Origin: Onthophagus taurus
Lineage: Eukaryota; Arthropoda; Insecta; Coleoptera; Scarabaeidae
Assembly (NCBI RefSeq): GCF_036711975.1
Contig: NC_091966.1
Location: forward strand, 20,839,501 to 20,903,500
Reading direction: 5' to 3'
DNA: 64,000 nt
The notes below the pieces were generated by a model that ran no database searches, was not told where the DNA came from, and saw only the letters and a list, made by a program, of their open reading frames with translations. The number at the start of each line of letters is the position of its first letter. Position 1 is the first letter of the stretch. Both the position numbers and the translations under genes were made by a program. Shown here in pieces: positions 16,934 through 35,175 of this stretch.

Positions 16934-17493
16934 AGTAGTATAGATTCGCCGATTCAAGAACCTCCTCCTCGAACCTGCGTTCTAGGAGGAGGTTCTTGAA
17001 TCGGCAATTTTTTTGGGGGTCAGAGGAGGTTCGATGAGGAGAGGAGGTTCTTGAATCGGCGATTCTTTTGAGGGTCGGAGGAGATTCGATGAAGAGAGGA
17101 GGAGGTCAATTAACTTGAGAAGGTCATGTTATTTTGACGAAATTATTAAAAATGTATCTTTATTTAGGTTATGTTATTAAAAATTTATCTGAAAACAATT
17201 ACTATGTTTATCCTTCGACGCTTCTCAATGAACTGTTAATGTTTTCGATATATCTCTTAATTTATTATACACAAAGGTATACGGTTTTGAGACGTGTAGG
17301 TATACAAATAAGTGAGTCATAACTTACCTGCGAGATATTTTTTTATTTTATTATGTAAAGGTGTACGGGTATTTAAGAATATGCGAGGAGGTTCTTGAAT
17401 CGGCAAATTTTTTGGGAGGATAGGTTTGAGGAGGAGGTCAACTAACTTGTTAGTAGTAGATGAGTCATGATCTACCTGCGAGATATTTTTTAA
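16934..17493 (+). repeat. Left terminal inverted repeat with tip hairpin and internal 20-mer copies
   Basis: Matches the reverse complement of 35286-35889. Right after the AGT-start there is a 22-bp perfect palindromic stem (16948-16969 with 16984-17005) around a 14-nt asymmetric loop. The 20-mer GAGGAGGTTCTTGAATCGGC, which forms the stem arm, recurs in direct orientation at 17041-17060 and 17385-17404. A unit containing a bent phrase (ACCTGCGAGATATTTTTT) is present twice (about 17330 and 17475). No gene lies in the TIR. Such repeats are plausible binding sites for integrase or replication proteins. Confidence 0.9.
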
Positions 17494-17626
17494 GAGCTTC
17501 TTAATAAATTTGTCATGCGTTTTGTCTGACGTCTCACGATATAATGACGTGTTAGAACATATATAATAGATATATTCGGTAATGATGTGAAATATTACTC
17601 CCCCCACCAGCAACCTTATGTATTGC
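17494..17626. other. Short spacer between TIR and first promoter
   Basis: Also present in the second copy (63660-63798) with few changes, including a C-run just before the TATA box. Presumably upstream promoter sequence. Confidence 0.45.
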
Positions 17627-17660
17627 TATAAATACAAACGTTGGTCGAAGTTGTACCGCA
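17627..17660 (+). promoter_or_regulatory. Core promoter 1: TATAAATA box and start region
   Basis: TATAAATA at 17627-17634, with a CAGAGT start-site-like sequence at 17659-17664 about 32 nt downstream. Conserved in the second copy (TATAAATA at 63799-63806). It drives the spliced first gene. Confidence 0.7.
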
Positions 17661-18726
17661 GAGTGTTGTGCTTCAGAGTAAGGTTTTTGTGTATTTAGTA
17701 CATATTAAAAATATCGTGTAGATTTTTGGTGCATTTAGTACAGAGGATTTTTAACGTAACGAGTAAGTAATTCAAATGTAATACAAGTAGATAATGTACT
17801 AATGTAAACAATAATATTGATGTTTAGTGGCAACCAGACCGAACCCCAAATGTCCAACTAAGAGAGCTGCTGTAAATTCATTTGAAAAGGGTGAAAATAA
17901 AAAACCTGCCCGAAACATCAAAATGGAGGGTAATTGTAATGAGACAACTGCAACAAATGTGTCGCTAGGAAGTGATAATCAAAGAAAAAGTGATGTGGTA
18001 TTCGATGGAATTAATTTGTTGGCTTCCGACTTAGCGGAGTACGTATTTCCTAGCAATCAACAACATTATGTAGAAAATTGTGGAAAGTTACCTTTCACAA
18101 GTAACGTAGTATTAAATGAAGCAGTGAAAAATAATCTCCAAAAAGGTAATCAAGCGCCATTATTCTCCGAGAGTACATATTATTTAAATAAAAGTCGAAC
18201 GAAATGGATATCGATTGGCATGTCTGCCAATCTACATTTTGATCCGGTTATAAGATTAATGGGAAAAGGACAATGCATAACTTTTACCGAAAACGAATGG
18301 AAAAATGTGATTAATAGCAGACAATTGATTATGAATAGTTTTGTTGGTGATTTATCGGCACCACCACATTTCGTTGTAAGCGGCGTGACCTGCAGCAGCC
18401 AATGGATAGAAAATGTACGAAAAGTGTTGAAAATGGAAAGGGGGTCAGAAATATTTTACCTGGCTTACGACTCGTTACACGAATTGTGGAAACTTAGCGA
18501 TTTAGTTTCGAGTAGGGTAGAAGTATTAAAGTGTATGGAATATAAAAATTATTACGATAGCGTGATCGATGTGGTATCAACAATGCAAGGTGATATAAAA
18601 TCGAATATATTGGTTGCTTCAAACGGTGCACCAAGTGAACATTTGTGCGTAACTAAAGAACTGCTCGTATACGGTATGGATAAGGTATTACTGGATTTAG
18701 ATTTGCACGCATTAATGAAGATGTGA
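17660..18726 (+). CDS. Polinton first gene: spliced, possible PC4-like nucleic-acid-binding protein
   Basis: No ATG opens the long frame, whose first codons follow an AG at 17826-17827. A donor (GTAAGTAA, 17763) and this acceptor define a 65-nt intron, and joining A17762 to TG17828 makes ATG GCA ACC, so the start codon is created by splicing. A second leader intron (17678-17738, GTAAGG...TTTAG) would leave a 24-nt exon. The product is about 299 residues: a basic low-complexity N-terminus (to about residue 55), then a globular part. Residues about 125-165 (KWISIGMSANLHFDPVIRLM, then KGQCITFTENEWKNVI) follow the pattern of PC4-type single-strand DNA binding folds (beta strands, KG, then an L-T-x-x-x-W helix). 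I infer this weakly; the family is otherwise unknown to me. Confidence 0.7.
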
Positions 18727-18736
18727 AGTGAATAAA

Positions 18737-18898
18737 ATGGAAAAAAAAGTGACGTTTTGCGAATGGAAAAATAGAGTGTACCGAATGCACACTTGGACGT
18801 TTGCTTACAGACAATCAAGGATAAGTGACTGGGAAGAAAAGATGTTGGACGGAATTAGATTTAAGACTAGGATAAGAAACGTAAATAAGTTATTATAA
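18737..18898 (+). CDS. Small basic ORF, 53 aa, function unknown
   Basis: Starts 10 nt after the stop of the preceding gene (ATGGAAAAAAAAGTGACG) and ends TTATTATAA. Residues include KVTFCEWKNRVYRMHTWTFA; aromatic- and arginine-rich, no known domain. Its position right behind the first gene, in the same direction, suggests co-transcription, but an AATAAA overlaps its start, so it could also be untranslated 3' sequence. Confidence 0.35.
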   Translation: MEKKVTFCEWKNRVYRMHTWTFAYRQSRISDWEEKMLDGIRFKTRIRNVNKLL

Positions 18899-19204
18899 GT
18901 TAATAAGTTATAAGTTATTAGAAAAATATTTAGATGTAGATTATAGATTAAATATATATCAAGAACGTTTTAGCATTGTAGAGTAATCGAAATGTTTTTA
19001 ACTGAGTAACAATTAATTTTTAGGATATTAGTAGATTTAAGTGTAGCTGAATAATAATAATAATATTAATAGATTTAAGTATAAATTAAGAGCAAAACTG
19101 TTTTTGTAAAATATTTAAAAGGAATAAAAGCTTAAAGCACAACAGCAGAGCTTCATTTCTAGTTTTTAACTGTGAAGAAAAGGAAGAAGGAGTGAAATTA
19201 TAAA
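18899..19204. other. AT-rich spacer before the PLA2 gene
   Basis: Contains repeated TAATAAGTTATAAG words (18881-18920) and ATAATAATAATATTAATAG. GGAATAAAAGC (19121) could serve as a poly(A) signal for the upstream gene or as a weak TATA-like element. No gene. Confidence 0.35.
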
Positions 19205-20122
19205 ATGAATTTGTTAGAACCTAATCGTAACAGTTATCGTTTGACAGGCAAACGAATTGGTCGAGGATTTTTTAACAAGTGGATAGATAAACTTCCGATA
19301 GAACTTCATTTGCCAGGATATAATTTTTGTGGACCGGGTACCAAGTTGGAAAAGAGATTATCGAGAGGAGATCGAGGCGTGAATCCATTAGACGAAGCGT
19401 GTAAGAAACACGATATAGCATATACGGTCAATTCAAATTTAAAATTTAGACACGACGCAGACAGAACATTATATAAAGCAGCGAAAGAACGAATACGAAA
19501 TAAAGAGTCTACTCTTGGAGAAAAAGTGGCATCGTCCGCAGTTGCCGCCTTAATGAAAGCAAAAGTAGCGGTCGGTATGGGCATAGGTAGAAAAAGAAAT
19601 CGTACGGGTCGACGACCTTTAAAAAAAGTCCGAACGCGTGTAAAGCGTTGTGGAGCTATATCTTTTGTAGATGCACTTCGATTCGCTCGCAACGCAATAT
19701 CGAGATCAGGTGCTAAGAATTTGTTGACAAACGTTAAAGCGGCGTACGGAGCTTTGAAAAAGATAAGAAAAAGAATTTCCGGACCTAGAGGTCGAGTTAT
19801 TCGAATTCCGAAAACGGGAGGATTTTTACCTTTAATTCCCCTGTTCGCAGCTTTAGGTGCCCTAGGTAGTATCGGCGGTGGTGCTGCCGCTATTGCAAGA
19901 ACTATAAACAACGCGAAAACAGCTAGAGAGCAATTAGATGAAGAACGAAGACATAACAAGGCTATGGAAGCAAAGGCCGTAGGTAGCGGATTTTATATAA
20001 AACCATATAAGAAAGGTTGCGGTTTGTTTATTGAAGGAAAGGGGAATAATGTTGGCGGCACAGGTTACTTCAATAAACCCTATAAGAAAGGTTGCGGTAT
20101 AACCACTAGTTCAAAAAACTAG
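19205..20122 (+). CDS. Minor virion protein: phospholipase A2 domain with membrane-active and basic C-terminal part
   Basis: 305 residues. An N-terminal secreted-type/parvovirus-VP1-like PLA2 domain has the calcium loop YNFCGPGT (about residue 39) and the catalytic dyad helix ACKKHDIAY (about residue 66), as in parvoviral VP1u and Polinton PLA2 proteins, which breach endosomal membranes on entry. The middle is very basic (RKRNRTGRRPLKKVRTRVKR), a probable nuclear signal or core-binding part. A Gly/Ala-rich hydrophobic stretch (GGFLPLIPLFAALGALGSIG) resembles adenovirus pVI/pX-type lytic segments. The tail has two copies of a (I/N)KPYKKGCG motif after GSGFY/GTGYF. The gene ends in a slippery heptamer directly before its TAG (see 20113). 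Confidence 0.9.
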   Translation: MNLLEPNRNSYRLTGKRIGRGFFNKWIDKLPIELHLPGYNFCGPGTKLEKRLSRGDRGVNPLDEACKKHDIAYTVNSNLKFRHDADRTLYKAAKERIRNKESTLGEKVASSAVAALMKAKVAVGMGIGRKRNRTGRRPLKKVRTRVKRCGAISFVDALRFARNAISRSGAKNLLTNVKAAYGALKKIRKRISGPRGRVIRIPKTGGFLPLIPLFAALGALGSIGGGAAAIARTINNAKTAREQLDEERRHNKAMEAKAVGSGFYIKPYKKGCGLFIEGKGNNVGGTGYFNKPYKKGCGITTSSKN

Positions 20123-20157
20123 TTCGAATACCTCGTCGTGCGTTAACTAACGTCGAG
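20113..20157 (+). promoter_or_regulatory. Predicted -1 ribosomal frameshift signal (A_AAA_AAC) with weak downstream hairpin
   Basis: A AAA AAC occupies 20113-20119 in the exact zero-frame phasing (tcA AAA AAC) of the PLA2 gene and is followed at once by its TAG stop. Slipping by -1 enters the protease frame, which is open from this point with no stop and no AUG before 20209. After a 12-nt spacer a bulged hairpin is possible (CTCG 20132-20135 with CGAG 20154-20157, CGTT 20141-20144 with AACG 20149-20152). The heptamer is one of the classical eukaryotic -1 sites; use here is my inference. Confidence 0.6.
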
Positions 20158-20499
20158 TTGGAAAAGTTTGCGAAAGTACTAAAAATTCCACATTTTCGGG
20201 GTATATTTATGAGAGACAATCCCCCGAGTAAGATTAAAAAGAAGGAAAGAGGTATTGTTAACTTGGACAACTTGAAAGGACGAGGGACTCATTGGGTCGC
20301 CTATAAGAAAGACGACAAGGACATATACTATTTCGACAGTTACAGTGATTTAAGACCGCCATTAGAAATTGAACAATATTTGCTGTCAGACGGTAGGGGT
20401 GGTCAAGTAAAGTATAATTACTGTCGATATCAAAGAGAAATAGATCAAAATTGCGGACAGTTGTGTCTGAAGTTTCTAAGTAATAAAAGGATCTATTAG
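20119..20499 (+). CDS. Adenain-like cysteine protease (maturation protease), AUG-less N-terminus
   Basis: Encodes a short C5-type (adenovirus/Polinton) protease that would process capsid precursors. Visible catalytic features are His in GTHWVAYKK, Asp in YYFDSYSD, Gln in QREIDQNCG and the nucleophile Cys in NCGQLCLKFL. The conserved N-terminal phrase LEKFAKVLKIPHFRG starts 50 nt upstream of the first AUG (20209, which would cut it off), and no AUG precedes it in frame. It may therefore be made by -1 frameshifting from the PLA2 gene, by splicing to an AG near 20108-20122, or from TTG at 20158. About 115-130 residues, short but complete for Polintons. Confidence 0.88.
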   Translation, partial: LVRIPRRALTNVELEKFAKVLKIPHFRGIFMRDNPPSKIKKKERGIVNLDNLKGRGTHWVAYKKDDKDIYYFDSYSDLRPPLEIEQYLLSDGRGGQVKYNYCRYQREIDQNCGQLCLKFLSNKRIY

Positions 20500-20529
20500 A
20501 GTCTAGAGACGTTTAGACGTTCAGAAGTA

Positions 20530-21261
20530 ATGGAGAAAGAAGCAATACACACGACATATACATTTACGTTGACTGGAAAGGCATCTGAATTGACTTGTAA
20601 TTTTAATCCTCCGATCTATTTGAACGAATTTGGTAGTTACGAGTTGGCTCTTTTGAATTTCGAAACGTTTAATAGTTTATCAAACATTAATAAAAACAAC
20701 AACGTAATCCAATACGAAGATAAGACAGGACATTTTAAAAACAATATAATAGTACCTGTTGGAACGTACGATATTGATGATATTGCCGAGTTCGTGAATG
20801 AACAGCTAGACAAAAGACACGCTAAAGGAGTCGTAATAAGGATTAAGGGGAATAATAACACACAACATTCTTTAATAAAAAGTACCCGTCGAATTAATTT
20901 TGCATGCGATAATTCTATAGGGCCGTTACTTGGCTTGAAGCCTCAAATATTACCTAGAGATACGGAAGTGGAATCCGATTTCGTAGTAAACATAAATAAA
21001 ACGAACGCCTTACAAATTTATTGTAATTTAGTGACGGGATCGTATAATAACGGAGTTCCCGTGCACGTTTTATATCATTTTTTCCCAAACGTTCCGGCAG
21101 GTTTTAAAATAATCGAATCACCACAACTGCCTATTTATTTACCGGTTTTAACGAACGTGATTAGTAGCTTAACAGTACGTATACTTGATCAGGACGGAAA
21201 CTTGGTAGACTTCAGAGAAGAAGAAATAACAGTGAGAGTTCACCTGAGATCGATAAATTGA
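20530..21261 (+). CDS. Penton-like minor capsid protein (single jelly roll)
   Basis: 243 residues starting at ATG 20530, 30 nt after the protease stop. The N-terminus (YTFTLTGKASELTCNFNPPI) and the motif GSYELALLNFETFNSL are typical of the Polinton minor capsid protein, which forms pentameric vertices. Predicted mainly beta, no signal peptide, no transmembrane segment. Position between protease and MCP is the usual Polinton/adintovirus order. Intact frame. Confidence 0.82.
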   Translation: MEKEAIHTTYTFTLTGKASELTCNFNPPIYLNEFGSYELALLNFETFNSLSNINKNNNVIQYEDKTGHFKNNIIVPVGTYDIDDIAEFVNEQLDKRHAKGVVIRIKGNNNTQHSLIKSTRRINFACDNSIGPLLGLKPQILPRDTEVESDFVVNINKTNALQIYCNLVTGSYNNGVPVHVLYHFFPNVPAGFKIIESPQLPIYLPVLTNVISSLTVRILDQDGNLVDFREEEITVRVHLRSIN

Positions 21262-21284
21262 ATTATTTAAATTTGACTAACGTT

Positions 21285-21476
21285 ATGACAGTGTTATATC
21301 AAAACAAAAGAATGCGGTGGTCAAGAAGAGACAGAGCGAGAAAATTGTTTAATGGAGAAAACTATAAAGCGCGCGTCATCAGTCAACGTAGCGGCAGTAG
21401 AAGACGATCCATTCATCGATTATCACCAGTCAATCGAAGGTATTTAGTTCAGTTAGGATACGAAGTATTAAAGTAA
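21285..21476 (+). CDS. Small Arg-rich basic protein, possible virion core peptide
   Basis: 63 residues from ATG 21285 (the frame is open from 21258 but that codon is TTG). Very basic (MRWSRRDRARKLF, RSGSRRRSIHR), resembling adenovirus-type DNA-condensing core peptides in composition only. Its TAA overlaps the ATG of the major capsid gene (TAATG, 21474-21478), a layout that permits termination-reinitiation on one mRNA. Confidence 0.6.
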   Translation: MTVLYQNKRMRWSRRDRARKLFNGENYKARVISQRSGSRRRSIHRLSPVNRRYLVQLGYEVLK

Positions 21477-22735
21477 TGGACATTTTAAAAGTAACGGATA
21501 AGATAAAAACAGATCACTCTATCGTAAGTTATGAATTCCATTCGCATCAACCGTTTGGATCGACCACGTTCGATAACAATGACGAAATTAGAATTTCAAT
21601 TCCGGAAATAGATAATTATACTTTACCGAGCGAGAGTTATCTATACGTCGAGGGTAGCGTTCGTAAGTTAGCCGCGGACGGAAGTATAACAAAAGATGCC
21701 AGCGCAACGGGGCAATTGGTTAACAATCCCGTTGCATTTATGTTTAGCGATATTCGATATCTTATTAACGGAGTACATGTTGATGGTGTGCGGAACGTCG
21801 GTATAAGCTCATGCATGAAGGGTTATTTCTCATCTACACAGAACGAGGTGGTGAAATTAGAGAACGCCGGTTGGCACATAAAACCTTGGAAAGATGATAT
21901 AGCGGGTGTTTCAAAGGCTTTAAATAAAAATGGAAATTTCGGTCTTAGCGTTCCGCTAAAAACGTTGCTAGGATTCGCAGAAGACTTCAGAAAGATCATG
22001 ATGAACGTTCGACAGGAACTTGTGCTAATTCGCGGACACGATGATACGGACGTCATCTTTCAACCAGCAGCCGTTCCGAACGACGAAAAATTGAAACTGA
22101 TCATTAATAAAATTATATGGAGAGTTCCTCACGTGGCGGTAGGATTACGCGAACAGTTGGCATTAACAAAACTATCAGAAAGAAACGTAGACATTCACGT
22201 TCCTTTTCGATCGTGGGAAATACACGAGTACCCTCAATTACCTCAAACTACGAAGCAATCTTGGGCCGTCAAAACTGCTCCACAATTGGAAACGCCTAGA
22301 TTTATAATCATCGGATTTCAAACAAATCGAAAGGGTATATTTAAAGGAAACATGGCATTATTTGATAATATAAACTTAACGAACGTAACCGTTTTCTTGA
22401 ATGGAGAACGTTTTCCGTACGATAATTTGAATGTGGATTTTGATAACAATCACTATGCGATTTTGTATGATATGTATTCATGATTTCAGCAAGCATACTA
22501 CTATCAAGAAAGCGAACCTTTGTTTTCACCGGAAGAATTTAAAACTTACGCGCCGTTAATTGGAATCGATTGCACGTATCAACAGGAAGCAATACATAAA
22601 AGCGGAGTAGAAATAAAAATCGAGTATTCAACGAAAAATCCAATTCCGGAAGGTACGACAGCTTACGCATTAATTCTGCATGACAGAGCATTTGTGTATT
22701 CGCCTCTTACGAAAATGGTTAAGCAATTAATATAG
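21476..22735 (+). pseudogene. Major capsid protein (hexon-like double jelly roll), one in-frame TGA
   Basis: Begins MDILKVTDKIKTDHSIV, typical of Polinton MCPs, and continues through the diagnostic second jelly-roll phrase SWEIHEYPQLPQTTKQSWAV and IIGFQTNRKGIF. A TGA at 22481-22483 follows YDMYS, after which the same frame stays open for 83 more codons (YYYQESEPLFSPEEF ... TAYALILHDRAF) to TAG at 22735. The relic MCP at 55.4-55.9 kb matches both sides of the TGA, and its aligned residue there is a sense codon, so the stop is a secondary mutation or a readthrough site. Full length would be 419 codons. Without readthrough no complete capsomer could form. Confidence 0.88.
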
Positions 22736-22808
22736 TGGTACTGTTGAAGCAACGTCATTTAGTGTATCTCTAAACATCGAAGGAAACGTTTGCATATAGT
22801 GGTATATT

Positions 22809-23288
22809 ATGGATATTATGGTTTTTCAAAGGGATTTTATTATTTTGGACATTCAAGGTTTCACGATAAACGATGAAGAATTTATCCCAAAGGAACTGGC
22901 TTCTTACGACAGTAATCATTGTATAAGTCATTACGTGTTTCAACCTAGTCAAAGCTTTTCTTCACTATCTACCAAATTTCGCAATACGGCGAATTGGTTA
23001 ATGAGTCATCATCATTGTATTGATTGGAACGACGGGTTTGTTCCTGCGTCTCGTTTCGATGAGATCGTTTATTATTTGTGTCGTTCGACAAAAGTAGCGT
23101 ACGTAAAAGGACGTGAGAAAGCTACATTTTTAAGAAGAATTTTAACAATACCGGTAAAAGAATTGCCGGAAAATGAATGCAAATTGGAGGTTGGTGCGCC
23201 GATGTGTCCCTATCATAAAAAGAGACCAAGTATGTGCTCCTTATCGAATGTTTTTTATTTATTTTCATACGTATTCAGACATCTATAA
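22809..23288 (+). CDS. Conserved Polinton-type protein with IQGF N-terminus and C-terminal Cys/His cluster, function unknown
   Basis: 159 residues. The N-terminal strand FIILDIQGF...EFIPKELA and the segment WLMSHHHCIDWNDG, then AYVKGREKATFL, match a family I recall from many insect genomes and retro/Polinton-like elements; its alternating strand pattern is compatible with an RNase-H-like/exonuclease fold, but catalytic acids are not clearly complete. The tail CPYHKKRPSMCSLSNVFYL carries conserved Cys/His. A GTATGT at 23232 could act as a donor, but splicing there would destroy the conserved tail, so I favour the unspliced reading. Confidence 0.65.
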   Translation: MDIMVFQRDFIILDIQGFTINDEEFIPKELASYDSNHCISHYVFQPSQSFSSLSTKFRNTANWLMSHHHCIDWNDGFVPASRFDEIVYYLCRSTKVAYVKGREKATFLRRILTIPVKELPENECKLEVGAPMCPYHKKRPSMCSLSNVFYLFSYVFRHL

Positions 23289-23344
23289 CTATATGTAAAC
23301 GAATTGAGAAAGGCAGACGGGTAGTAGCGGTAGAGCAGTTCAAG

Positions 23345-23677
23345 ATGGAACGTCTTTGGCGGTTAGTTACCAGATTGGGACTTTCAACTTTTATAATTAA
23401 TAAAGTGTGGGATATTATGGAAAGATACGAATCTGATTTATCTTTTGCGAATATTAAAAACTACGAATTATGTTATTTACCAATCGATTATTATATCAAT
23501 AAAGTAAAGCCATTAGATTTGGCGGCGGTTTGGTTTAAATTACCGTTGAAGTATAGAAACGATGAGCGATTACAAAGCAAGCTGCCCTGTTTTGAACATT
23601 ATAATTTACCTCATTGGGAAACGCATATTGATGGTCCTCCATCGGCAAGAAAGGATTGTTCTTTATGTAAGGTTTAG
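23345..23677 (+). CDS. Conserved small Polinton-associated protein, function unknown
   Basis: 110 residues from ATG 23345. Helical N-terminal half (MERLWRLVTRLGLSTFIINK), aromatic middle (LPIDYYINKVKPLDLAAVWF) and a C-terminal motif CFEHYNLPHWETH with DCSLCKV, suggesting a bound metal (Cys-His-His-Cys-Cys). It follows the previous gene in the same direction. No catalytic motif recognised. Start choice: first ATG in a frame that is also open upstream, so an upstream exon cannot be excluded. Confidence 0.5.
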   Translation: MERLWRLVTRLGLSTFIINKVWDIMERYESDLSFANIKNYELCYLPIDYYINKVKPLDLAAVWFKLPLKYRNDERLQSKLPCFEHYNLPHWETHIDGPPSARKDCSLCKV

Positions 23678-24020
23678 TATATAAACATTGTCAGTTATAG
23701 ATTGTAAATTAATAGAAAAGGGGAAAAAAGGGGAAAAAGGGAAAGAAAAAAAAAAAAAAGAGAAAAAAAAAAAGAGAAAAGAAAAGGGAAAAGGATTGTT
23801 TATTGAAGCTCCTCCTATGCTCCTCCCATGCTCCTCCTCAGGCTCCTCCCAAAGTGGAGATGGAAGAGTGGGGATGGGAGTGGGGGAAATCTAAAATTCC
23901 CCCCCCCCCAGTTGCCAGGAAAGTTGAGCCAGAAAAAAAGTACCCCCACTCTAACTCCGCCCATTCCCCACTCCTCCCCCTTGCCACGCCCCACCCCACG
24001 CCCCCCCTTCATTACTCTAC
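23678..24020. other. Purine run and C-rich upstream promoter region
   Basis: 23717-23800 is almost pure G/A on the plus strand (long A runs with GGG), then CTCCTCC-type repeats at 23805-23860 similar to the TIR pyrimidine words, then C-rich boxes (CCACGCCCCACCCCACGCC at about 23984-24002) like Sp1/KLF sites. No gene; probable upstream promoter of the leader transcript. Confidence 0.5.
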
Positions 24021-24053
24021 TATAAGAAGACACCTCCCAGCCTTTGAAAGTCA
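24021..24053 (+). promoter_or_regulatory. Core promoter 2: TATAAG box and initiator
   Basis: CTATAAGAAG with TATAAG at 24021-24026 and TCACTT at 24051-24056; putative start A24053, 32 nt downstream. Upstream C-rich boxes. It feeds directly into the multi-intron leader. Confidence 0.65.
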
Positions 24054-24801
24054 CTTAAGTGTTTGTGTTCTTCAGTTTTTTTGGTAAGTACAACCTTCTT
24101 TATTATCAACTTTATATAACGTTCATTTTCTCTCCATCACTACAGCTCTTTCTACAACTTTCTCTTTTTTTGGTGAGTAAAACTATATTTGTTTTGCATG
24201 TTTATATAATATTTAAAATTTTTTTTTTTCCCAGTCCTAGACATCCTTCTGCTTTCTCTTTTTTGCTGACGTGTTTTATTTGGTAAGTAACCTTTTTTAC
24301 TTTGCTTATATAATATGTAAAATATTCTTGTTTTGTTTCATCATAACAGCTCTTTCTACTTTGTTTTTGTGAGTACAACTTGTTTATTTGTTTGTTATGT
24401 TAAATTGTTATTTTTATTTTTTCAATTCCTACAGGACCTTACTACTGATCACTTCCATTTTGTGTTTGATCAGTTCGATCAGTTTTGATAACTTCGTTAT
24501 CTCGGCGACTTTTTTCTGGTAAGTATAGCCTTCTTTTCCTTTGCATATATTGTTGCTAATCTGTTTTTTTTTTTCATTCCTATAGCTCCTTCTATTTTAA
24601 ATCTTAATTTTTGTTGGTAAGCATAACTTTATTATTCGAACGTTTGTATCATAATATCTACAATAATTTTTTATCATTCACATCCTATCATTCAGCACCC
24701 ACTGCAATTAGATTTTAACGTTCTTTTCATCAAGCGATGTAAGTATACATGATTTTTTATTAAAATAAAATAAATTAATGTATGAATCTTTTTTTATCAA
24801 G
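24053..24801 (+). promoter_or_regulatory. Seven-intron non-coding 5' leader (AUG-free after splicing)
   Basis: Predicted exons: 24053-24083, 24146-24172, 24235-24282, 24350-24368, 24435-24518, 24586-24616 and 24696-24738, then the coding exon from 24802. Introns are 62, 62, 67, 66, 67, 79 and 63 nt, all GTAAG or GTGAG to YAG, except the last, which ends AAG. The joined leader of about 283 nt has no ATG, whereas several introns do. Three exons start CTCTTTCTA or CTCCTTCTA and their preceding introns resemble each other, so the leader grew by tandem duplication of an intron-exon unit. The layout recalls the multipartite late leader of adenoviruses, an analogy only. Confidence 0.75.
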
Positions 24802-25785
24802 ATGTCTCAAGACGGTTTTAGTCAAATTGATTTAACTGCTCCCGGTTTCGCCAGCAGCCAGGAGTCATTCCTGTTAAACAGTTTTGACATAAACCTGTTG
24901 AACATATCGACTGTTGAGAAGGCGCTGGATCCAAACGTGCAGCCTAATGAGCAGCCGATGGATCCTAACGTGGAATCTAATGCGCAGCAAGATCCGTCGC
25001 TTCTGAACGTCGCAGGTTCCGCGAATGTCGACGATAAAAATGTGAAACGCCTTTCACTTCGTCGGAATTCGGGGAACCGTGAACATTAGAAGAAGGCTGC
25101 AGGTGTGTGGGTACCGTCAGAAAAGTATAGAGAGGAAAGAAGGGAGGCACGTGCTCGTTCGCGACGTAGCCAACGCAAGTATGTGTCAGTTGAACAAGCG
25201 ACCCCGTCGAAGGTTGAAATGACACAGTCGAAAGTGGTTACCGAGAACGAGTCCGATAAATCCGACGACTCTCTTGCTTTAATGGCGGTATCACAACACT
25301 GTAGTAACCGGAAGTATCTTAAAGCTACTAAGGCTTCTTTTTCTTCTTCTTCTAAAGCTTCATTGGCTCCCGTTACTAACTCAAATATCCCTAACACCGA
25401 AATTTCTTCGTTAAGCCCGAAAGTACACATCTTAAGGGTTGACAATATTCCTGCTAATATTCCTGCTACTTCAGATATTTCCGATGTGTCTGCCAGCCTT
25501 TTTTCAAACGCAATGTGTACAGCAGTAGAAACAACCAAAGGGCAGATTTTGGCCGAAATTAATAATTTGTATCAAAATTTTTATAAAGACCTTCATGCAA
25601 AGGTTCTTCAATTGCAGACCTCTTTGAGAGAACTTTCACAGTTTAGAGAAAGGCTGGCATCGAGCTGTAACAACCCTTTAACAATATCGCTCGACATCAC
25701 CATAGCATCATTAACCTGTGAAATTAAAAAGGCTGAATGTATTTTATCTAGTTTCACTACTAATAGCGTAAACTTCCCTTCCTAG
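24802..25785 (+). CDS. Leader-driven Polinton protein with in-frame TAG; coiled-coil C-terminus; unknown function
   Basis: ATG 24802 is the first base triplet after the last leader intron and begins MSQDGFSQIDLTAPGF. The N-terminal 95 codons are Asn/Asp/Pro-rich with repeats (DPNVQPNEQPMDPNVESN). A TAG at 25087-25089 interrupts the frame, which then continues open for 232 codons: a very basic segment (YREERREARARSRRSQRKY), a Ser-rich linker, and a helical coiled-coil part (GQILAEINNLYQNFYKDLHA, LQLQTSLRELSQF). Possible readings are readthrough, nonsense mutation, or two proteins (next in-frame ATG about 25219). No homologous family recognised. A fibre/spike or regulatory protein are guesses I cannot support. 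Confidence 0.55.
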
Positions 25786-25792
25786 CTTAAAG

Positions 25793-26159
25793 ATGACTAA
25801 TAATATGGATAATATGAGAGTTAATCATATGCTAAGACTATGTGAAGTGGAGCAGAAAGTTGCCTCGTTGGAGGTAAAATTAGATGCTATATTTAAGTTG
25901 GTACGTTATACTTATAATACTTTTTTCCATGTCATTAATTTTATCTTCTCAGCTGCAGAGTGTGTCAGAATCGGCTGTGGTGAGGGGTGAAGTGCATGTG
26001 CAAAACATGCACATTAACCGTTGCACATGTGTTAGTTCACCGACTCCGGCACCGACTCCGGCAACGACTCCGGCAACGACTCCGGCAACTACTCCGGCAC
26101 CAGCAGCACCACCACCTCCTTACCAAAGATATCAAGAAGAGGAGGAGGAGGAGTGGTAA
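25793..26159 (+). CDS. Spliced small protein with Pro-Thr repeat and acidic C-terminus
   Basis: ATG 25793 lies 8 nt after the previous stop. Exon 1 (25793-25900) ends AAG TTG at a GTACGT donor; a 52-nt intron ends TTCTCAG at 25952; exon 2 (25953-26159) keeps the frame. Product about 104 residues: helical coiled-coil start (LCEVEQKVASLEVKLDAIF), a Cys/His segment (MHINRCTCVSS), five or so PTPAT-type repeats, PPPP, and a tail of six glutamates and Trp. The proline-threonine rod followed by an acidic tail could be a stalk or linker. Unspliced reading stops early, supporting the intron. Confidence 0.6.
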
Positions 26160-26182
26160 CTACTCCTTCTCTTCTTTTATTT

Positions 26183-26307
26183 ATTAAGTTAATATTAAGT
26201 TAATTATTAAGTTAATTATTAAGTTAATTATTAAGTTAATTATTAAGTTAATTATTAAGTTAATTATTAAGTTAATTATTAAGTTAATTATTAAGTTAAT
26301 TATTATT
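26183..26307. repeat. Tandem repeat, unit AAGTTAATTATT (12 bp, about 10 copies)
   Basis: Near-perfect array of the 12-mer between the Pro-Thr gene and the ATPase promoter. The high identity shows recent slippage. Pure A/T apart from one G per unit. Confidence 0.92.
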
Positions 26308-26343
26308 TTATAGTTCCAATATACTCAATATATTTTATATATC

Positions 26344-26379
26344 TATATAAAGTTACTTTTGCTATATTTTCATTCAGTC
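26344..26379 (+). promoter_or_regulatory. Core promoter 3: TATATAAAG and TCAGTC initiator for the ATPase gene
   Basis: TATATAAAG at 26344-26352 and a perfect arthropod-type initiator TCAGTC at 26374-26379, start A26376, 30-32 nt apart. The ATPase ATG follows 43 nt later; a minimal upstream frame (ATG TTA TAA) lies between. Confidence 0.78.
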
Positions 26380-26418
26380 TTATCCTGTTAATGTTATAAT
26401 TCATTTAGTACGAGAATC

Positions 26419-27123
26419 ATGATCGACGAGAAATTAAAATGTTTACCGCAACTTCTAACACTGCCTATAGTAAATTTTAGTAATGGTTCGGTCGAAGAAC
26501 ACTTTACAAGACACAGCAATTTATTTGGTGGAAAATGTAAGCGAGGTTTAATTGTAGGACCCTCTGGTGTGGGAAAAACAAATGCTATGTTATCGCTTTT
26601 ACTTGCACGTAATGGCCTCCGCTTCCTAAACTTATACTTATGCTCCAATTCGTTATACCAAAATAAGTACGATTTTTTAAGACGTTTAATTGAACCTATA
26701 AAAGATTGCGGTTACTATGAATTTTCTAATACAGACGAGTTCATTCGACCGGAAGATGCGAAAGAATATTCGGTAGTCGTATTTGACGATGTTTCCTGTA
26801 CAGGTCAAAATGTCATTAAGGAATTTTTTTCGTATGGTCGACATAAAAACATTGATTGTTTTCTAATTTGTCAAAGTTATAGTGCAATTCCAAAACAATT
26901 AGTTCGCGATAATTGTAACTTTTTGGTGTTATTTAAACAAGACTTAACAAATTTAAAACACGTATTTGAAGATCACATAATGAGCGATATGGAGTTTCAT
27001 CGGCTAAAGGAAATTAGCGATGCTTGTTGGGAGAATAGACACGGCATCCTAGTTATTGATTTAGATTGTAGTGTATCTAAGGGACGTTACCGTAAGGGTT
27101 TTGATAAATTCATTGAAGTTTAA
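26419..27123 (+). CDS. Genome-packaging ATPase (FtsK/HerA, A32-like)
   Basis: 234 residues. Walker A GPSGVGKTN at about residue 50, Walker B SVVVFDDVSC at about residue 118, then the sensor-like CQSYSAIPKQLVRDN, all as in Polinton/adintovirus and poxvirus A32-type DNA-packaging ATPases that pump genomes into preformed capsids. Frame intact; own promoter just upstream. The relic at 55.97-57.05 kb is homologous along its length. Confidence 0.92.
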   Translation: MIDEKLKCLPQLLTLPIVNFSNGSVEEHFTRHSNLFGGKCKRGLIVGPSGVGKTNAMLSLLLARNGLRFLNLYLCSNSLYQNKYDFLRRLIEPIKDCGYYEFSNTDEFIRPEDAKEYSVVVFDDVSCTGQNVIKEFFSYGRHKNIDCFLICQSYSAIPKQLVRDNCNFLVLFKQDLTNLKHVFEDHIMSDMEFHRLKEISDACWENRHGILVIDLDCSVSKGRYRKGFDKFIEV

Positions 27124-27174
27124 AACTAACGACTTCAGCTGTACAGTTCGTAGTAACTTCACATACATCATACA

Positions 27175-28338
27175 ATGAACAAGACGATAGCTGCAGAACT
27201 TATCGCGGCACGAGAAGTCGTGAGAGACAAAATTCGTTCTTTAAAAGAAGACTTAGAGGAGTCAAGGATTCGGTCGGAAACCGCATATGCACCCATCGCA
27301 AGGCCCTTACAGGATATTGTCGCAAAACTTGACACTGCGCCTTTACTATCCATTCCAAAACGAAGTTTATCTCCAAAAGAAGAAAAATTGATATCTAAGA
27401 TACAACGCTACTCGCCGGATATTTCTGACGTACCAGCTAAAACCGAGACCGAATATTTTATTCGAAAACCGAAAGTTCCATTAAAAGAACAACGACGAAA
27501 ATTTGCTACATCGACTCCTGAAAAAAGGTTGGTATCTTCTCCCACGTCTTCTCCTCTTGGTCCATTAGTTCATGCAGAAGAAGAAGTATATGAAGTTCCG
27601 CCGAGCGAAGAAGAAGAACTCCTCGATTCTAGCGAGGATACCGGAGCTCTTATTTCGGACGCACATAATCGAATAGAACGACTTAAAGATGAAATAGAAG
27701 AAAGATTGGAGTCTCCAGAGGTACAAGCCGCTTTGAGTCAGTTTCATCCTTTGCCCAGAACGTATATTGTTGGTTTAACAACTGATTTAAAAGATGATTA
27801 TGATCGTTTATACGGTGTTCGCGAAACTCCCGAAGGTTTCTACATTGGAGTCAGTCCTGTTCACTTTGAGGATCAGGATATTCACGTTGGCAACTTCAAA
27901 TATACGGGAACCGTTGGTTTATATGATTTACTATTTAAAAACGAACCGGGCAAATTTACAATTCAGGACATGCGCAACTACAAAGATATCTTACTACGTT
28001 CAAATGCTCCGTACATTAATTACATTCCAGAGGCAGGTATGACTACTGAGGACGACAGTGGGAAATTTCAGAATATTATCAAGCCTATCGTTGAAGGTAA
28101 CAAACCCAAGGTGCATTGGGCTAAATACTGGCCGAATCCGAAGAAAAAAGTCGGTGGTGCATTACAAAAACAAGTCGTTCCTGGGGCTCTTATCGAATAC
28201 GAGTATTGGGACGATCCCAACGAACTTGTCGACAGACTGCGTTTGTTGATGGCCTCGCAAACTGCAGGTCATTCTGCACATGTCAATGAAATATCATCAA
28301 TAATATCGGAGCTAACAGAGGCCGAGATTATACGTTAA
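27175..28338 (+). CDS. Polinton-specific conserved protein (GLYDLL / NAPYxNYxPE family), function unknown
   Basis: 387 residues. Helical, charged N-terminus (EVVRDKIRSLKEDLEESRIR), a Ser/Pro/acidic linker (residues about 95-165, with EEVYEVPPSEEEELLDSSED), a short coiled coil, and a conserved C-terminal domain with YIGVSPVHFEDQDIHVG, YTGTVGLYDLLF and DMRNYKDILLRSNAPYINY. I recall this domain as regularly encoded beside the ATPase and integrase of arthropod Polintons. Bulky acidic linker and coiled coil suggest a scaffold or virion internal protein, but function is unknown. Intact frame. Fragments of a relative lie at about 61.03-61.33 kb. Confidence 0.8.
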   Translation: MNKTIAAELIAAREVVRDKIRSLKEDLEESRIRSETAYAPIARPLQDIVAKLDTAPLLSIPKRSLSPKEEKLISKIQRYSPDISDVPAKTETEYFIRKPKVPLKEQRRKFATSTPEKRLVSSPTSSPLGPLVHAEEEVYEVPPSEEEELLDSSEDTGALISDAHNRIERLKDEIEERLESPEVQAALSQFHPLPRTYIVGLTTDLKDDYDRLYGVRETPEGFYIGVSPVHFEDQDIHVGNFKYTGTVGLYDLLFKNEPGKFTIQDMRNYKDILLRSNAPYINYIPEAGMTTEDDSGKFQNIIKPIVEGNKPKVHWAKYWPNPKKKVGGALQKQVVPGALIEYEYWDDPNELVDRLRLLMASQTAGHSAHVNEISSIISELTEAEIIR

Positions 28339-28407
28339 AATATTATCATAAATATACGACTCTCACATTTTTTGTTTTAAAACACCTACGTTTGTGAACT
28401 AGAGCAG

Positions 28408-28833
28408 ATGAGTTTAAGCAAGTTCGGAAAACATTCGTCTAGTATGACGATCGATAAGTTTGGTAAACACGTACACGGACACAACATTGCTGCTCATTTT
28501 AATAAACGTGAAAACTTACAACGATATTTCAAACAACCAACAATACTTACGTTTAGCGGAGATGGAACTACGGATACAACGGATAATTATTACATTATTC
28601 AAAATTTAGGTTACGTAAGTAAATATATAAACTTTTTATATATTGGTGAAATAGTGAAATACCGATTTGAAGGAGACGTTGAAATGATTATTAACGGGAG
28701 TATCTTCGATCCAAATAAAAAGTTAAATGTTCTCTTCTTTGGAGATAAAATAGTTTGCAAACCCACAACGAAGACCACTTTACTCAAGAAACCATTTATG
28801 GTAGAACTGCTCATTGAAATATCCAGAAAATGA
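28408..28833 (+). CDS. Small KFGKH-motif Polinton protein, function unknown
   Basis: 141 residues; N-terminus MSLSKFGKHSSSMTIDKFGK repeats the KFGKH motif. Many arthropod Polintons carry a similar short (K/R)FG(K/R)H-starting protein with a beta-rich remainder; a virion surface or fibre-type role is possible but unproven. Its TGA overlaps the ATG of the integrase (ATGA at 28830-28833), so the two are probably translated from one transcript. Confidence 0.7.
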   Translation: MSLSKFGKHSSSMTIDKFGKHVHGHNIAAHFNKRENLQRYFKQPTILTFSGDGTTDTTDNYYIIQNLGYVSKYINFLYIGEIVKYRFEGDVEMIINGSIFDPNKKLNVLFFGDKIVCKPTTKTTLLKKPFMVELLIEISRK

Positions 28834-29765
28834 GCGATATTAAAAGGTCCGTCGTAAACGAGTTGCACGCGTCCGCGAGGAAAAAGTATAAACGCAGACG
28901 TGTTATTATAAAAGGTTTAACGGACTTATTTCAAGCTGATTTAGTGGAGATGATACCTTATTCAAAAGCAAATGGTAATTTTAAATATATTCTAACAGTT
29001 ATTAATGCTTTCTCAAAGTATGGATGGGCTGTACCACTAAAAAACAAAACTGGCAAAGAAGTTACGCGAGCTATGGAAACAATTCTATCGGAAAAGCGGA
29101 AAAACATACCGAAGAATCTGCAAACGGATAACGGAAAAGAATTTTACAATGAGGATTTTAAAAAGCTCATGTCACGATATCACATCAATCACTACAGTTC
29201 ATTTTCCAATTTAAAGAGTTCTATTGTTGAACGGTTTAATAGAACAATAAAAGAAAAAATGTGGAAAGAATTTAGTATGCAAGGTAACTATCGTTGGTTG
29301 GAATTGCTTCCCAAATTAATTCTGGATTATAACAACCAAGTTCACAGGACGATAGGAATGAAACCTAGCGAGGTAAATAACAGAAACGCATCGACACTGT
29401 TAAAAACTGTATATAATTACATAAAAATTGCCGATCCTTATACCAAAAAATTTAATGACGGTGATCATGTCAGAGTGAGCAAGCATCGACACGCCTTCAC
29501 CAAAAACTATACTCCCAATTGGTCTAACGAAGTGTTTACAATACATTCTGTTCGTAATACTTTCCCAACAACATATCTGCTCAAAGATGCATCCAATGAA
29601 AAAATTATGGGTGGTTTTTATCGAGAGGAATTACAAAAAGTTAAATATCCTGACGTCTACTTGGTGGAAAAAGTGCTACGGCGAAAAGGAAATCAAGTGT
29701 TTGTGAAATGGTTAGGATTAGGTCCGTCTCATAATTCTTGGATCTCAAAAACTAACGTTCTTTAA
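28830..29765 (+). CDS. Polinton integrase (rve fold with C-terminal chromodomain)
   Basis: 311 residues. DDE catalytic residues: Asp in LFQADLVEM (about residue 35), Asp in LQTDNGKEFY (about 90), Glu in SSIVERFNRTIKEKM (about 126). A C-terminal chromodomain is seen in YLVEKVLRRKGNQVFVKWLG. This is the retroviral-type integrase that inserts Polintons with 6-bp duplications, matching the CATGTG found. Full-length and open, so possibly functional. It converges with polB; about 100 bp separate them, holding TTTATT words that are AATAAA signals on the other strand. Confidence 0.95.
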   Translation: MSDIKRSVVNELHASARKKYKRRRVIIKGLTDLFQADLVEMIPYSKANGNFKYILTVINAFSKYGWAVPLKNKTGKEVTRAMETILSEKRKNIPKNLQTDNGKEFYNEDFKKLMSRYHINHYSSFSNLKSSIVERFNRTIKEKMWKEFSMQGNYRWLELLPKLILDYNNQVHRTIGMKPSEVNNRNASTLLKTVYNYIKIADPYTKKFNDGDHVRVSKHRHAFTKNYTPNWSNEVFTIHSVRNTFPTTYLLKDASNEKIMGGFYREELQKVKYPDVYLVEKVLRRKGNQVFVKWLGLGPSHNSWISKTNVL

Positions 29766-29867
29766 AACGTATAAAGACCTATTTAAAAGTTTACAAGACT
29801 TTATTAACAATCGAACATTACAAATACATTATTATTATTATTCTTTACATTTTTTTTTAAATTAAAT

Positions 29868-30103
29868 TCATTTATTCGCATTCAATCTTTTTATCAACCA
29901 ATGACCCCACGCCAAAGTATTACATCCGTTCGGTAATATGTATCGTTTATCATCGTACGATGAAAGAGCAATTTTATTCTTTAATTCGGTATACATAGTA
30001 TGAAATTCTGACTTAAAAATGTACATTTTTTTATGAACCGATCCGCCACATTCAACCACACGTTTATAATCGGTCACGCTTAAATGTTTATCTATAACAC
30101 ACG
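29868..30103 (-). pseudogene. Detached C-terminal part of DNA polymerase B
   Basis: Minus strand. Reads VIDKHLSVTDYKRVVECGGS, then HKKMYIFKSEFHTMYTELKN and DDKRYILPNGCNTLAWGHW, the usual C-terminus of arthropod Polinton PolB. It follows logically after the last PolB codons at 31116 but is separated from them by the 30104-31116 insertion. Confidence 0.85.
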
Positions 30104-31116
30104 GTAAAAAATGGATGTAAAAATACATTATACTACATTAAACTACAAGATTGACTTATGAAATAATACATGAATTAACAACGTAATTTTCGAAATCCAG
30201 TTAATACCAAGTAAAATTACAGGAAATTAGTAAATTTGCAAAATATTACATTTTTTTAATATGAATTACACAAAGCTATGTAAACTACAGGAAAAACCTG
30301 TAAATAAATGGAAAATCAAGTAAAACAATGTAAATGTATTTAATAAATTGGGAAATCATGTAGTATTGCTAAAAATTACTATTACTAACATGTAAAATAC
30401 CGGTTGGCCCCACCACCACTTTCTGCGTTCAGTCGGCCGAATAGCGTTGCAACTACGCACAACGCGTTGACAACATTGTGCCGAGTACAGTCTAATAACG
30501 TATCAATCGTCGAACGTTATACGCGCTCTCTTATAATAATAATAATAATAAACCACTTTAATCTGTCCATTTAGTATTTCGTTCTTGGGTGCCCTTTAGT
30601 ACGTATACCGGTTGTACACAAAGTTTTTGTGTTCCAAGTTTGCCGTCTGTTAAAATTGTAAAAGTTTACACTTTTTCCACTATTCTTTTAATGCTTTTGT
30701 ACTGTAAAACATTATAACAATGGTGGAAAAACTATTGGCTTTCATAATTTGGACATAAAACAAATTTGGATATCTAGAACTTCCATAATGACATTCGTAT
30801 TTTTACATTTATTTAAGCTTAAAACTATGTAAATGTACAGGGCTGAATAATGAATTATTACATAGCAGACGAACTACAATATTCATAGCACAAGTAATTT
30901 TACATATAAATATAGTCATTTTTACGTGTTAATACGTGTACATTACCTGGGTTAAGAAGTAAAATTATATCAATCACAAACGAAAAGTACAAACATAGAA
31001 ATGGAAAATGCGCTTGTTTAGATATGTATTTATTTTGCTATTACATACGTGTAACTTTTTACATGAATATCCATGGCAATAAATTACCAGTACTGGACCA
31101 TGTAATTATTTTTTAC
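30104..31116. mobile_element. 1013-bp non-coding insertion in polB, unclassified
   Basis: Splits polB between its thumb region and C-terminal segment. Ends carry a short inverted pair GTAAAAAAT / ATTTTTTAC (30104-30112, 31108-31116). The interior is AT-rich with many TGTAAA/TTTACA words, and a CpG-containing block at 30390-30620 that starts TGTAAAATACCGG and ends CCGGTTGTACA, reminiscent of a small LTR. No coding frame. Target duplication not resolved. The stop that ends the main PolB frame is supplied by this insert. Confidence 0.55.
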
Positions 31117-34100
31117 TGTGCATATTTCTTTACTCCTTTAGCCTTTTTTACATTATCATTCAACAAGGTGATGCAGTACGCCTTAGCTCCTGTTCCAACA
31201 AATGACGTTATGCACCTGTTTGGATATTCATCTTTCATTCTTCCCAACACAGATCGACCGCGAGGTATATTGTGTATATTCTCTAACGGATAATTGGACG
31301 TGTCAAAAAATTCAATATTTTCTTTTATATCCTCATATACATTGGGAGTAGTAATTTCTAGGATTAGGGAATCAGTATCGGTGTATAAAAGTGTTATGTT
31401 ATTTCCATATTTAACTTTTAAGTAATCATAGAAGAAGCTGTACATTACGGTTTTCGAAAGCTCTAGTATACTGAAACCCACATACAGCGGTTTGCAATAA
31501 CGAACTTCCGCTACGTTCAATTGAACGGCTATCAAATTATCGCAAAATATTTTCGAAGATTTAAATTTTGGTTTAGCTATTAGGGCTTCCACGCCCGGTT
31601 TCTTATGACGACATTCCCAGTGGGTAACTAATCTTATATCCACTCGCTTTTCCACATTTTCCATTGTCTTACCGTATACGATGTTATTCATTGCTTTGTA
31701 ATGATTTTTTTCAAATTCATTCTTAGCTTTCGCACGTTTATCGGAATTGAAATCGATGTAGCTCCGCATCCAGTTGGATTGTTTAAATTCTAATACTCTG
31801 TAAATCTTCGTTAGTTTCAATCCGAACTTGATACACTGCTTTAGATTCACGTAATGAATGATGTATTTTGTTTTATTTTCCAAATTTGCTATTAACTTTG
31901 CATTTTTTGAACCTGGGGGTACAATCCGTTCTGGACAAAATGGCAAATCGTTGTGTTCATCATGTATTGCTTCCGGATACTCTAAATCTACCTCGAACAC
32001 GTAACCCTTTTCGGAATCGTCTTCCGTATTGTAAATATCTAACTTTTGAATCTCTTCATCTGATAGCCATCGAAATCCCCCCGTCGGTAATTTTCGTCTC
32101 ATTGCGTGTCCATACAAATTCGTAGCGTCGAGATACAAAATATAAGATAGGTCTTTGGTTTCATCAAATTCCATCATTAATTTATTGTTAGCCTTCGCAC
32201 TGCGTTTAGTGCACATACTTAATCCACCGCGAATACCATTTTTAAAGAAGTGTAACATGTCTATGTCCGTTAATAATTCTAATTTTACCCCTGTCATTCG
32301 TAATAATGCATCCCAACCGAAGCCCGGCGCTGTGAAGTAATGACATGGATCTAAAGAGTAATACTTCATCGAGATGGTTCGGAAATTCTCAAATACGTCC
32401 GCCAAAAGTAAAACGTCAGACGTTAAATAAATGTCGCTATATTCGCCTAAAGTGCGACAGTTAAATAAGTTCCACACCGTTTGTGCACGACAATAATTTT
32501 CTTCGGTTATACTATCATCGCATAAAGTATTGTAAAAACTACTTCGATCTGGCAGAGCGGTAAGATTCAGCTTTTCGAATGAATCCACAAAGGAATACGG
32601 AAAAAGTCCTTTCTGACGTATAAGTCGAAACTGTTCTTCGTTCCTAAAATATTTTCTGATTTGAACGCATTGGTTGTCTTCCAAAAATGAACCCAACTTC
32701 TCTAGCGATAAAGCCATAAACCTAAATGAATCCACAAATCTCAATTTCATATGAACCCGCCTTAGCTTTCCCTTGCTGTCAATGTTTTCTCCTACGATAA
32801 TTTTTTTCGAAAATGATATATACTTTTCTTTATTCTGTGCTATAACGGCCACGTCTTCTTCTTTTAATGCCATATCTTTCACAAACATATGACAATCGTA
32901 GTTCGAAAGATTGTGAAAGAATATCGGTATGAACTTTGGTAATTGATAATTGATGTTACATACAGCATGTGCGGGTCCTCTATACAACCCAGTTAGGTGA
33001 TCATGATCGCACACTTTATTACCTTCTTTTATTTTGTGCGAACAAATGTGACAGATATCCTGCATCTCATGTATTAATCTATCAATAGGTGGTAATGGGA
33101 GCATTTCTTTTGGTTGGCTTAAATAATTTTTGTATATATTCAGAACGTCATGTTCCAACTTGCTCATGAAAATTTGAGCAGCATTACATCCGCGATATAT
33201 TTCAAACTTCGACAATGATTCGTCATATGAACATTTTATATAATATGCAAATGCATAAGGTTCGTGTTTGAAACATTTGACGGAGTATGAATTATCATCG
33301 TTAAGTTCTGTTGCTTCCGCATCGGCGATCGGTTTCTGTAATGCTTCAAAATCTGCATACACCACGAACGGTATTTTTAATTGTCGTTCAAAATTTTCGA
33401 ACTGTAGTATATTTTCCTTTTCTTCATTTCCATATTTATTTATTTTCAAATTTGTTGTTGGTAAAATTGCCCTTACCTTGCTGCAATCGTCACTTTGATG
33501 ACGGATAAGTTTATTTTCTGACGTAAAGAATACCAAGCATCCGTCGCAAATATACTTTTCATGACCATTCTGCGATGCTTGCGATGATAGTAATCGAGAC
33601 GGGTTTTTTATCCAACAATAGTGACTATTCCCGGAATCATTTGTAACCAATAATAAATTTATATGTCTTTCTTCTTTTTGTCGACATATATACATTGTAA
33701 TTATGTCATAATTCATAACACCGTCTTTAAAATACTCATTTATTCCATATACATTAATAGATAGTTTGTTCTGCTTTTCAAATACAGGTATATCTCGTAA
33801 TTTAACTGGAAAAACAATATTTGAATAGTCTAAGCCGCAGTCTAGGTAATTCGGATACGAAGATGTCCTCTGTGGTAAACCGTTCGGTTCATGTAGTGCG
33901 GATGTTACAGCCCATGCAAAACATGCATCATCCGCGTTTTGTATATTTATCACAGCACGCTTTGCTTTTATTTGCGATGGTAGATCGATGTAATTAGATG
34001 CTCTGATAGGATTATATTTGTTTAAATTTAACTCCATATAGAGAATTTGCATTAAAGTCCATCCTAAATAAAATATTGAAACATTTATTTTTTAATATAC

Positions 34101-35106: not shown

Positions 35107-35175
35107 TTTACAATTTAATGTTGTACACTTCTACTTGTTATGAAAGAACTACGTCAATACCACATTTCGCAGGCG

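Follow-up and report, generated by a model that had tools for sequence, protein, structure and literature searches.

The window, that is, the whole 64,000-nucleotide stretch of Onthophagus taurus DNA analysed here, contains an 18.96-kb element that had been called a Polinton on first reading, an assignment upheld by terminal inverted repeats, a target duplication and integrase, capsid and ATPase domains. The element has the Polinton/Maverick combination of terminal inverted repeats (231-nt arms of 99% identity, plus further arms) with a 6-bp duplication (CATGTG on both flanks, 16928-16933 and 35890-35895), and of an integrase with a double-jelly-roll (DJR) capsid and an ATPase. Its plus-strand genes include those for a phospholipase-A2-like protein, the DJR capsid (PF21738, 1.4e-75), an A32-type ATPase (A32-like, PF04665, 2.4e-08) and an rve integrase (PF00665, 4.6e-12), and the capsid, ATPase and integrase ORFs are uninterrupted by introns. 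A minus-strand ORF (31113-34052) contains the motif YTDTDS, which we take to be a PolB signature; Pfam, PHROGs and PDB sequence searches returned no polymerase name for this ORF. No adenain-type protease was detected among 14 proteins put to Pfam, and no relatives were found in IMG/VR with the ATPase or the capsid as query. Directly upstream of the PolB-like ORF lies a 125-nt inverted repeat (34096-34220 and 34400-34524) with a 179-nt spacer. Elsewhere in the window, positions 2878-4044 encode a reverse transcriptase (a hit just under the Pfam cut-off) and then a GIY-YIG domain, an order known from Penelope-like elements.

Downstream of the DJR capsid gene, a promoter-like stretch and a series of predicted introns precede two ORFs, ORF1 and ORF2, which are followed by the ATPase gene. 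Copies of this region occur in two types, A (including the window copy) and B. The features are as follows.

16934..35889, no strand assigned: Polinton element, 18.96 kb, bounded by terminal inverted repeats and target duplication; ends placed by eye
24021..24053, plus strand: TATA-like element TATAAG (24021-24026) and predicted transcription start near 24052 (GTCACTT), both from sequence
24052..24083, plus strand: leader exon 1, with a predicted 5' end
24084..24145, plus strand: leader intron 1, 62 nt, GTAAGT..CTACAG
24146..24172, plus strand: leader exon 2, 27 nt
24173..24240, plus strand: leader intron 2, 68 nt, GTGAGT..TCCTAG, acceptor corrected from 24234
24241..24282, plus strand: leader exon 3, 42 nt
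24283..24349, plus strand: leader intron 3, 67 nt, GTAAGT..TAACAG
24350..24368, plus strand: leader exon 4, 19 nt
24369..24434, plus strand: leader intron 4, 66 nt, GTGAGT..CTACAG
24435..24518, plus strand: leader exon 5, 84 nt
24519..24585, plus strand: leader intron 5, 67 nt, GTAAGT..CTATAG, with branch-point-like TGCTAAT
24586..24616, plus strand: leader exon 6, 31 nt
24617..24695, plus strand: leader intron 6, 79 nt, GTAAGC..ATTCAG
24696..24738, plus strand: leader exon 7, 43 nt
24739..24801, plus strand: leader intron 7, 63 nt, GTAAGT..ATCAAG, ending at the ATG
24802..25785, plus strand: ORF1, adjoining the leader; in-frame stop at 25087 in the window copy, open in many other copies
25758..25785, plus strand: candidate second leader acceptor, consisting of TACTAAT, the CTTCCCTTCC tract and TAG, which is the ORF1 stop and lies 7 nt before the ORF2 ATG
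25793..26159, plus strand: ORF2 with coding intron 25901-25952, C-terminal PPPPY and acidic tail, from sequence and the predicted spliced products of copies L075 (type A) and L065 (type B)

Between the TATA-like element and the start codon at 24802, the sequence contains seven GT..AG introns in order, each 62-79 nt long, together with exons of 19-84 nt. The first-pass annotation had described seven donors, each paired with an acceptor, in these size ranges, and had placed the last acceptor against the start codon; the positions were recovered as a chain of seven, and the acceptor ending at 24801 directly abuts the ATG. The donors, at the first position of each listed intron, all fit GTRAGY, and the acceptors end at the last. 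One border had to be moved. Intron 2 had been ended at 24234 (CCCAG), a site that reads CCAC in 20 of 30 aligned copies; TCCTAG ending at 24240 is kept in 30/30, so intron 2 must end there. Splice-site scoring, which had been suggested as a check, gave a divided answer: in a weight-matrix scan with a donor threshold of 5.5, six leader donors pass and the donor at 24369 (TTT/GTGAGT) falls below. A YNYTRAY scan detected branch points only for intron 5 (in both types) and for the acceptor at 25785.

Chains of this length were confined to the leader. Under a strict rule (GTRAGY donor, pyrimidine tract plus AG, intron of 50-100, exon of 15-120), the leader forms a chain of seven, compared with one on the remaining plus strand of the window and one on the minus strand; none of 5,000 Markov sequences of leader composition exceeded two, and the maximum in 40 Markov windows was three. 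Under a loose rule the leader chain is still seven, the remaining plus strand reaches two and 100 simulated Markov windows top out at four. The minus strand reaches five under the loose rule (34925-35466), a chain judged to be chance because GTGAGG makes up three of the five donors and the last two introns fall within a coding ORF. These results bear on the possibility that the region holds no introns, and that a T-rich repeat array or a coding repeat mimics splice sites. The U-rich composition fits such mimicry; however, simulations of the same composition fall short of the chain in the window leader, stops and indels occur in the array of the window family (F1), and splice cores are conserved across types A and B, as described below. 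We consider mimicry very improbable.

The joined leader had also been said to lack AUGs that the introns contain, and this is borne out: in the window copy, ATG occurs 0 times in 278 nt of joined exons and 6 times in 472 nt of introns. The joined leader of the type-B copy L065 (292 nt) is likewise ATG-free, and one of the 30 aligned copies (L002) has an exon ATG. AUG depletion is supportive but weak alone, because shuffled exons lack ATG in 4-10% of cases (P = 0.04-0.10). The ORF1 reading frame meets stops inside the spliced leader. The ATG at 24778, in intron 7 of the window copy, is in frame with ORF1, and the counterpart of this stretch is ATG-free in the four type-B leaders read.

Leader copies are numerous in the same genome (290.8 Mb). 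The window leader as query identified at least 42 places (40 of 87 candidates scored), namely 29 whole or partial type-A copies, 11 of type B and two fragments of listed copies; a type-B leader, again with 40 of 87 candidates scored, identified at least 40 places, of which 36 belong to type B and four to type A. Pooling both queries gives at least about 65 whole or partial leader copies. Comparison with other copies had been named in advance as a check, and in an alignment of 30 (24 type A and six type B) all seven GT..AG pairs are intact in 26; the borders are, as in spliceosomal introns, conserved across diverged copies. The four non-intact copies comprise L007, with GC at donor 7, L021, without acceptors 3 and 4, and L023 and L025, which are truncated or deleted. 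L019, counted among the intact copies, has an intron 7 cut down to 26 nt, probably too short to splice. Some splice-site changes stay within the consensus: in L074 and L076 donor 7 reads GTGAGT instead of GTAAGT, and in L080 acceptor 6 reads TAG instead of CAG. Three single copies carry other donor changes, one at donor 2 (GTTAGT) and two at donor 7 (GTAACT, GCAAGT). Among nine further stretches examined (L072-L080), L074 and L080 retain all seven introns, L080 without its TATA region. The loss in L076 runs from the promoter through intron 1 and that in L073 extends as far as exon 5, L077 has lost the leader entirely, and no leader sequence was found within the stretches examined of L072, L075, L078 and L079. 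A genome-wide search for processed copies using the exon 7/ATG junction gave 0 hits with up to 3 mismatches for that single junction.

The deletions in L076 (near 895-910) and L077 (near 1501-1517; both plus-oriented) share their starting point, a GGGGGAAATCTAAAATT stretch that lies upstream of the promoter. At G000:C11:4062587-4102270, three leader copies lie on one strand, and their spacing of ~19.3 and 19.5 kb suggests a tandem array of Polintons. An ATPase protein search gave at least 150 matches (150 of 327 candidates scored), many of them 98-100% identical; at the sequence level a recent Polinton burst is apparent, as are further families or subfamilies at about 62, 50, 49 and 48% ATPase identity.

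Types A and B differ in a confined part of the element. In 100-base steps, the window copy (A) and L065 (B) are 97-100% identical between 22900 and about 24240, a purine-rich stretch at 23700-23799 (76%, many gaps) excepted; identity then falls to 59-96% as far as about 26380, and the two are identical again at the ATPase start. A 2.1-kb cassette (24240-26380), comprising the leader from exon 3, ORF1 and ORF2, exists in two strongly diverged forms with near-identical flanks; since it sits inside otherwise near-identical elements, we infer that it probably moved by recombination between Polinton lineages. Within 24283-24801, A equals B at 44/45 splice-core sites and 223/297 other intron sites (Fisher P = 1.6e-4; 23 A copies, with L022 left out, and six B copies), that is, 1/45 core differences versus 74/297. 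Within type A (20 copies; L019, L021, L023 and L025 left out), variable sites number 2/63 in splice cores, 44/409 in introns and 52/278 in exons, or 2/61, 23/286 and 45/195 without homopolymers. With homopolymers removed, core versus exon (P = 2e-4) and exon versus intron (P = 5e-6) both differ; the contrast of core versus intron is weak (P = 0.067, or 0.28 without homopolymers). Within this type, then, variation is greatest in the leader exons and smallest at the splice sites. This order, with the introns in between, favours the act of splicing, rather than the leader sequence, as the selected feature.

This pattern also bears on the likeness to adenovirus late leaders drawn in the first-pass annotation. 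What holds of it, by sequence and conservation, is a multi-intron, AUG-free 5' leader; the part that fails is conservation of exon sequence, as would befit exons with a role of their own, for across the 20 type-A copies the exons outvary the introns. A true counterpart of the late leader would have one late promoter, exons with a role in translation and several late mRNAs, and the multi-exon noncoding leader speaks for it. A leader of the adenovirus kind, whose exons have a function of their own, is made less likely, however, because exon sequence is not kept and no RNA structure was found in the spliced leader beyond that of shuffles (z 0.08 and -0.15). Further evidence comes from the genes downstream.

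ORF1 evolves fast, has no match in Pfam, PHROGs or PDB sequences, is not recognised as a capsid, and is predicted to be mostly disordered (mean pLDDT 46), with only C-terminal helices at moderate confidence. Constraint on it looks modest, given dN of 0.125 and dS of 0.261 (NG86), or 0.139 and 0.202 (YN00), from one pair of natural copies. TACTAAT, CTTCCCTTCC and TAG at its end are conserved in both A and B. When both strands of the window were searched for TACTAAY ahead of a pyrimidine-rich YAG, three sites emerged, the one at 25785 being best by eye. In the weight-matrix scan this site reaches 7.2 in type B but stays under the threshold of 6.0 in type A. One leader may serve both ORF1 and ORF2, as hinted by this conserved branch point and acceptor ahead of ORF2 and by a second Polinton family, F2, whose best acceptor (12.0 bits) precedes its own second ORF; reinitiation after ORF1 is an alternative route to ORF2. 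An internal ORF1 donor at 25103 (CAG/GTGTGT, both types) was considered as a splice partner for the acceptor at 25785 and rejected as a general one, since the frames that result from joining would, by eye, not match in the two types. The acceptor before ORF2 and that before the second ORF of F2 would suit an adenovirus-style leader serving several mRNAs. Against it stand the sub-threshold score of the ORF2 acceptor in type A, the ATPase gene downstream of ORF2, which apparently has its own TATA/initiator-like start (by eye), and the position of the DJR capsid gene upstream of the leader, with no recognised capsid gene downstream. A true late-leader counterpart is accordingly quite unlikely in our estimate.

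ORF2 provides a separate line of evidence. Its coding intron, legible in the sequence itself as are the leader splice sites, their conservation and the AUG pattern, must be removed in both types to reach a common conserved C-terminus, and is therefore independent evidence of the element's reliance on splicing. The PPPPY ahead of the acidic tail, present in both types, resembles late-domain motifs, which recruit Nedd4-type ligases.

Growth of the array by tandem duplication, the origin first put forward for it, is partly confirmed. CTCYTTCTA opens exons 2, 4 and 6, the donors continue alike into the introns, and introns 1-3 share an inner core (pairwise P 0.0025-0.0125, uncorrected, with 21 pairs per type). 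A general resemblance among the introns did not emerge, as no pair outside introns 1-3 was alike beyond the splice sites at P < 0.02. The array appears to have grown, at least in part, via local duplication of exon-intron units. F2, which is found in dozens of copies in the same genome and has an ATPase 62% identical to that of F1, carries a 141-bp tandem duplication of 95% identity that covers a donor, an intron, an acceptor and an exon (L061:1048-1329). The duplicated units sit upstream of the gene preceding the ATPase, the place corresponding to the F1 leader. A third intron is predicted by the loose rule ahead of the start codon, giving three overall; a loose-rule chain of three arises by chance in 64-kb simulations, and the duplicated unit is, at the level of sequence, the stronger point. 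The F2 copies are 99-100% alike at all scored places (40 of 60 candidates scored), so F2 offers no conservation test. In L061 its unspliced frame (999-1358) stays open across the two units, which makes a coding repeat conceivable in F2; this open frame and the chance-reachable chain speak for mimicry of splice sites. No similarity was detectable between F1 ORF1 and F2 ORF1 (the part from L061:1714). Families F3-F5 differ in gene order from the leader-bearing element, and no intron array was found in the stretches read (L062-L064, and L081 and L082, which are F3 flanks), so Polintons do not need such a leader in general. In F3 and F4, the ATPase start and the stretch upstream of it are tandemly duplicated (L062 near 3549 and 3677, reverse-complement coordinates; L063 likewise).

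Duplication of this kind could also have been passive, with introns that are spliced efficiently but bring no benefit by their number, units that are tolerated because they are cleanly removed, and splice sites kept only because their loss would add intron AUGs to the mRNA. Such growth accords with the F2 duplication, which spans a whole exon-intron unit, with the inner core common to introns 1-3 and with the poor retention of exon sequence. However, both types retain the full set of seven although they diverged long ago, and none of the copies aligned or read has cleanly lost or gained one unit. Passive growth is possible, but on this evidence we find it doubtful. Retention of the array in many copies despite surrounding change suggests that the act of splicing matters for gene expression.

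The region is probably a noncoding 5' leader of ORF1 that is spliced by the host, with splicing itself under selection. We infer its transcription start, splicing, the effect of splicing and any sharing of the leader as follows. A host RNA polymerase II transcript would begin near 24052, and host spliceosomes would excise seven minimal introns, joining a ~278-nt, U-rich, AUG-free leader to the ORF1 start codon. In un- or part-spliced RNA, the retained intron AUGs would divert ribosomes, so translation may be gated by full splicing. The benefit of splicing could lie in export, in exon-junction marking and perhaps in protection from a surveillance of intron-poor foreign RNA. The leader may alternatively skip ORF1 and join the 25785 acceptor, allowing ORF2 to be expressed, and local duplication of exon-intron units would account for at least part of the array's growth. 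Weighing against the model are the empty search for the exon 7/ATG junction, the donor changes in single copies that depart from the consensus, the shortened intron 7 of L019 and the few branch points found. A bolder extension of this splicing model is that it protects the element from surveillance of intronless DNA. In its fullest form, seven promoter-proximal introns would mimic host mRNA to a surveillance of intron-poor foreign DNA, the leader would be alternatively spliced to ORF1 and ORF2, with the ORF1 stop as the ORF2 acceptor, and arrays would recur in Polintons via unit duplication; this combination is unlikely, and is weakened by how poorly the ORF2 acceptor scores in type A. A precedent comes from HUSH, for which an excerpt of PMC8770142 reports that inserting an intron relieves the silencing of a repressed transgene and does so even when no splicing takes place. 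That effect was shown for a human silencing hub and is carried over to the Polinton leader as an analogy.

We found no description of such a Polinton leader in the open-access literature (titles and abstract openings, with subscription papers mostly outside this scope), and the excerpts consulted of PMC8363768 and PMC11071296 describe no Polinton leaders. If transcripts confirm the model, a virus-like DNA element would possess an unusually intron-dense leader, present in dozens of copies in one genome and accompanied by the units of a second family. It would then provide a natural experiment on the birth of leader introns by duplication and on whether foreign genes in a eukaryotic host are shielded or boosted by splicing, as well as a point of comparison for how multipartite leaders arose among the relatives of adenoviruses.

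Among known systems, the adenovirus tripartite leader has three leader exons and long introns. Small animal introns are typically GT-AG and about 60-80 nt. The Polinton leader introns resemble ordinary animal 5' UTR introns in borders and size, but here seven are packed into 750 nt, are partly duplicated and lie in a mobile element. With the adenovirus leader, whose three parts are termed introns in an excerpt of PMC5429599, it shares a multi-part noncoding arrangement ahead of viral genes in a dsDNA lineage related to Polintons. It differs in having seven exons, introns of 62-79 nt and exon sequence that is not conserved, and in that one or two target genes are suggested, the target not being a recognised capsid gene. 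The closest parallel within the genome, F2, likewise places tandem exon-intron units before the gene upstream of the ATPase, but with three predicted introns and a downstream protein without detectable similarity to ORF1.
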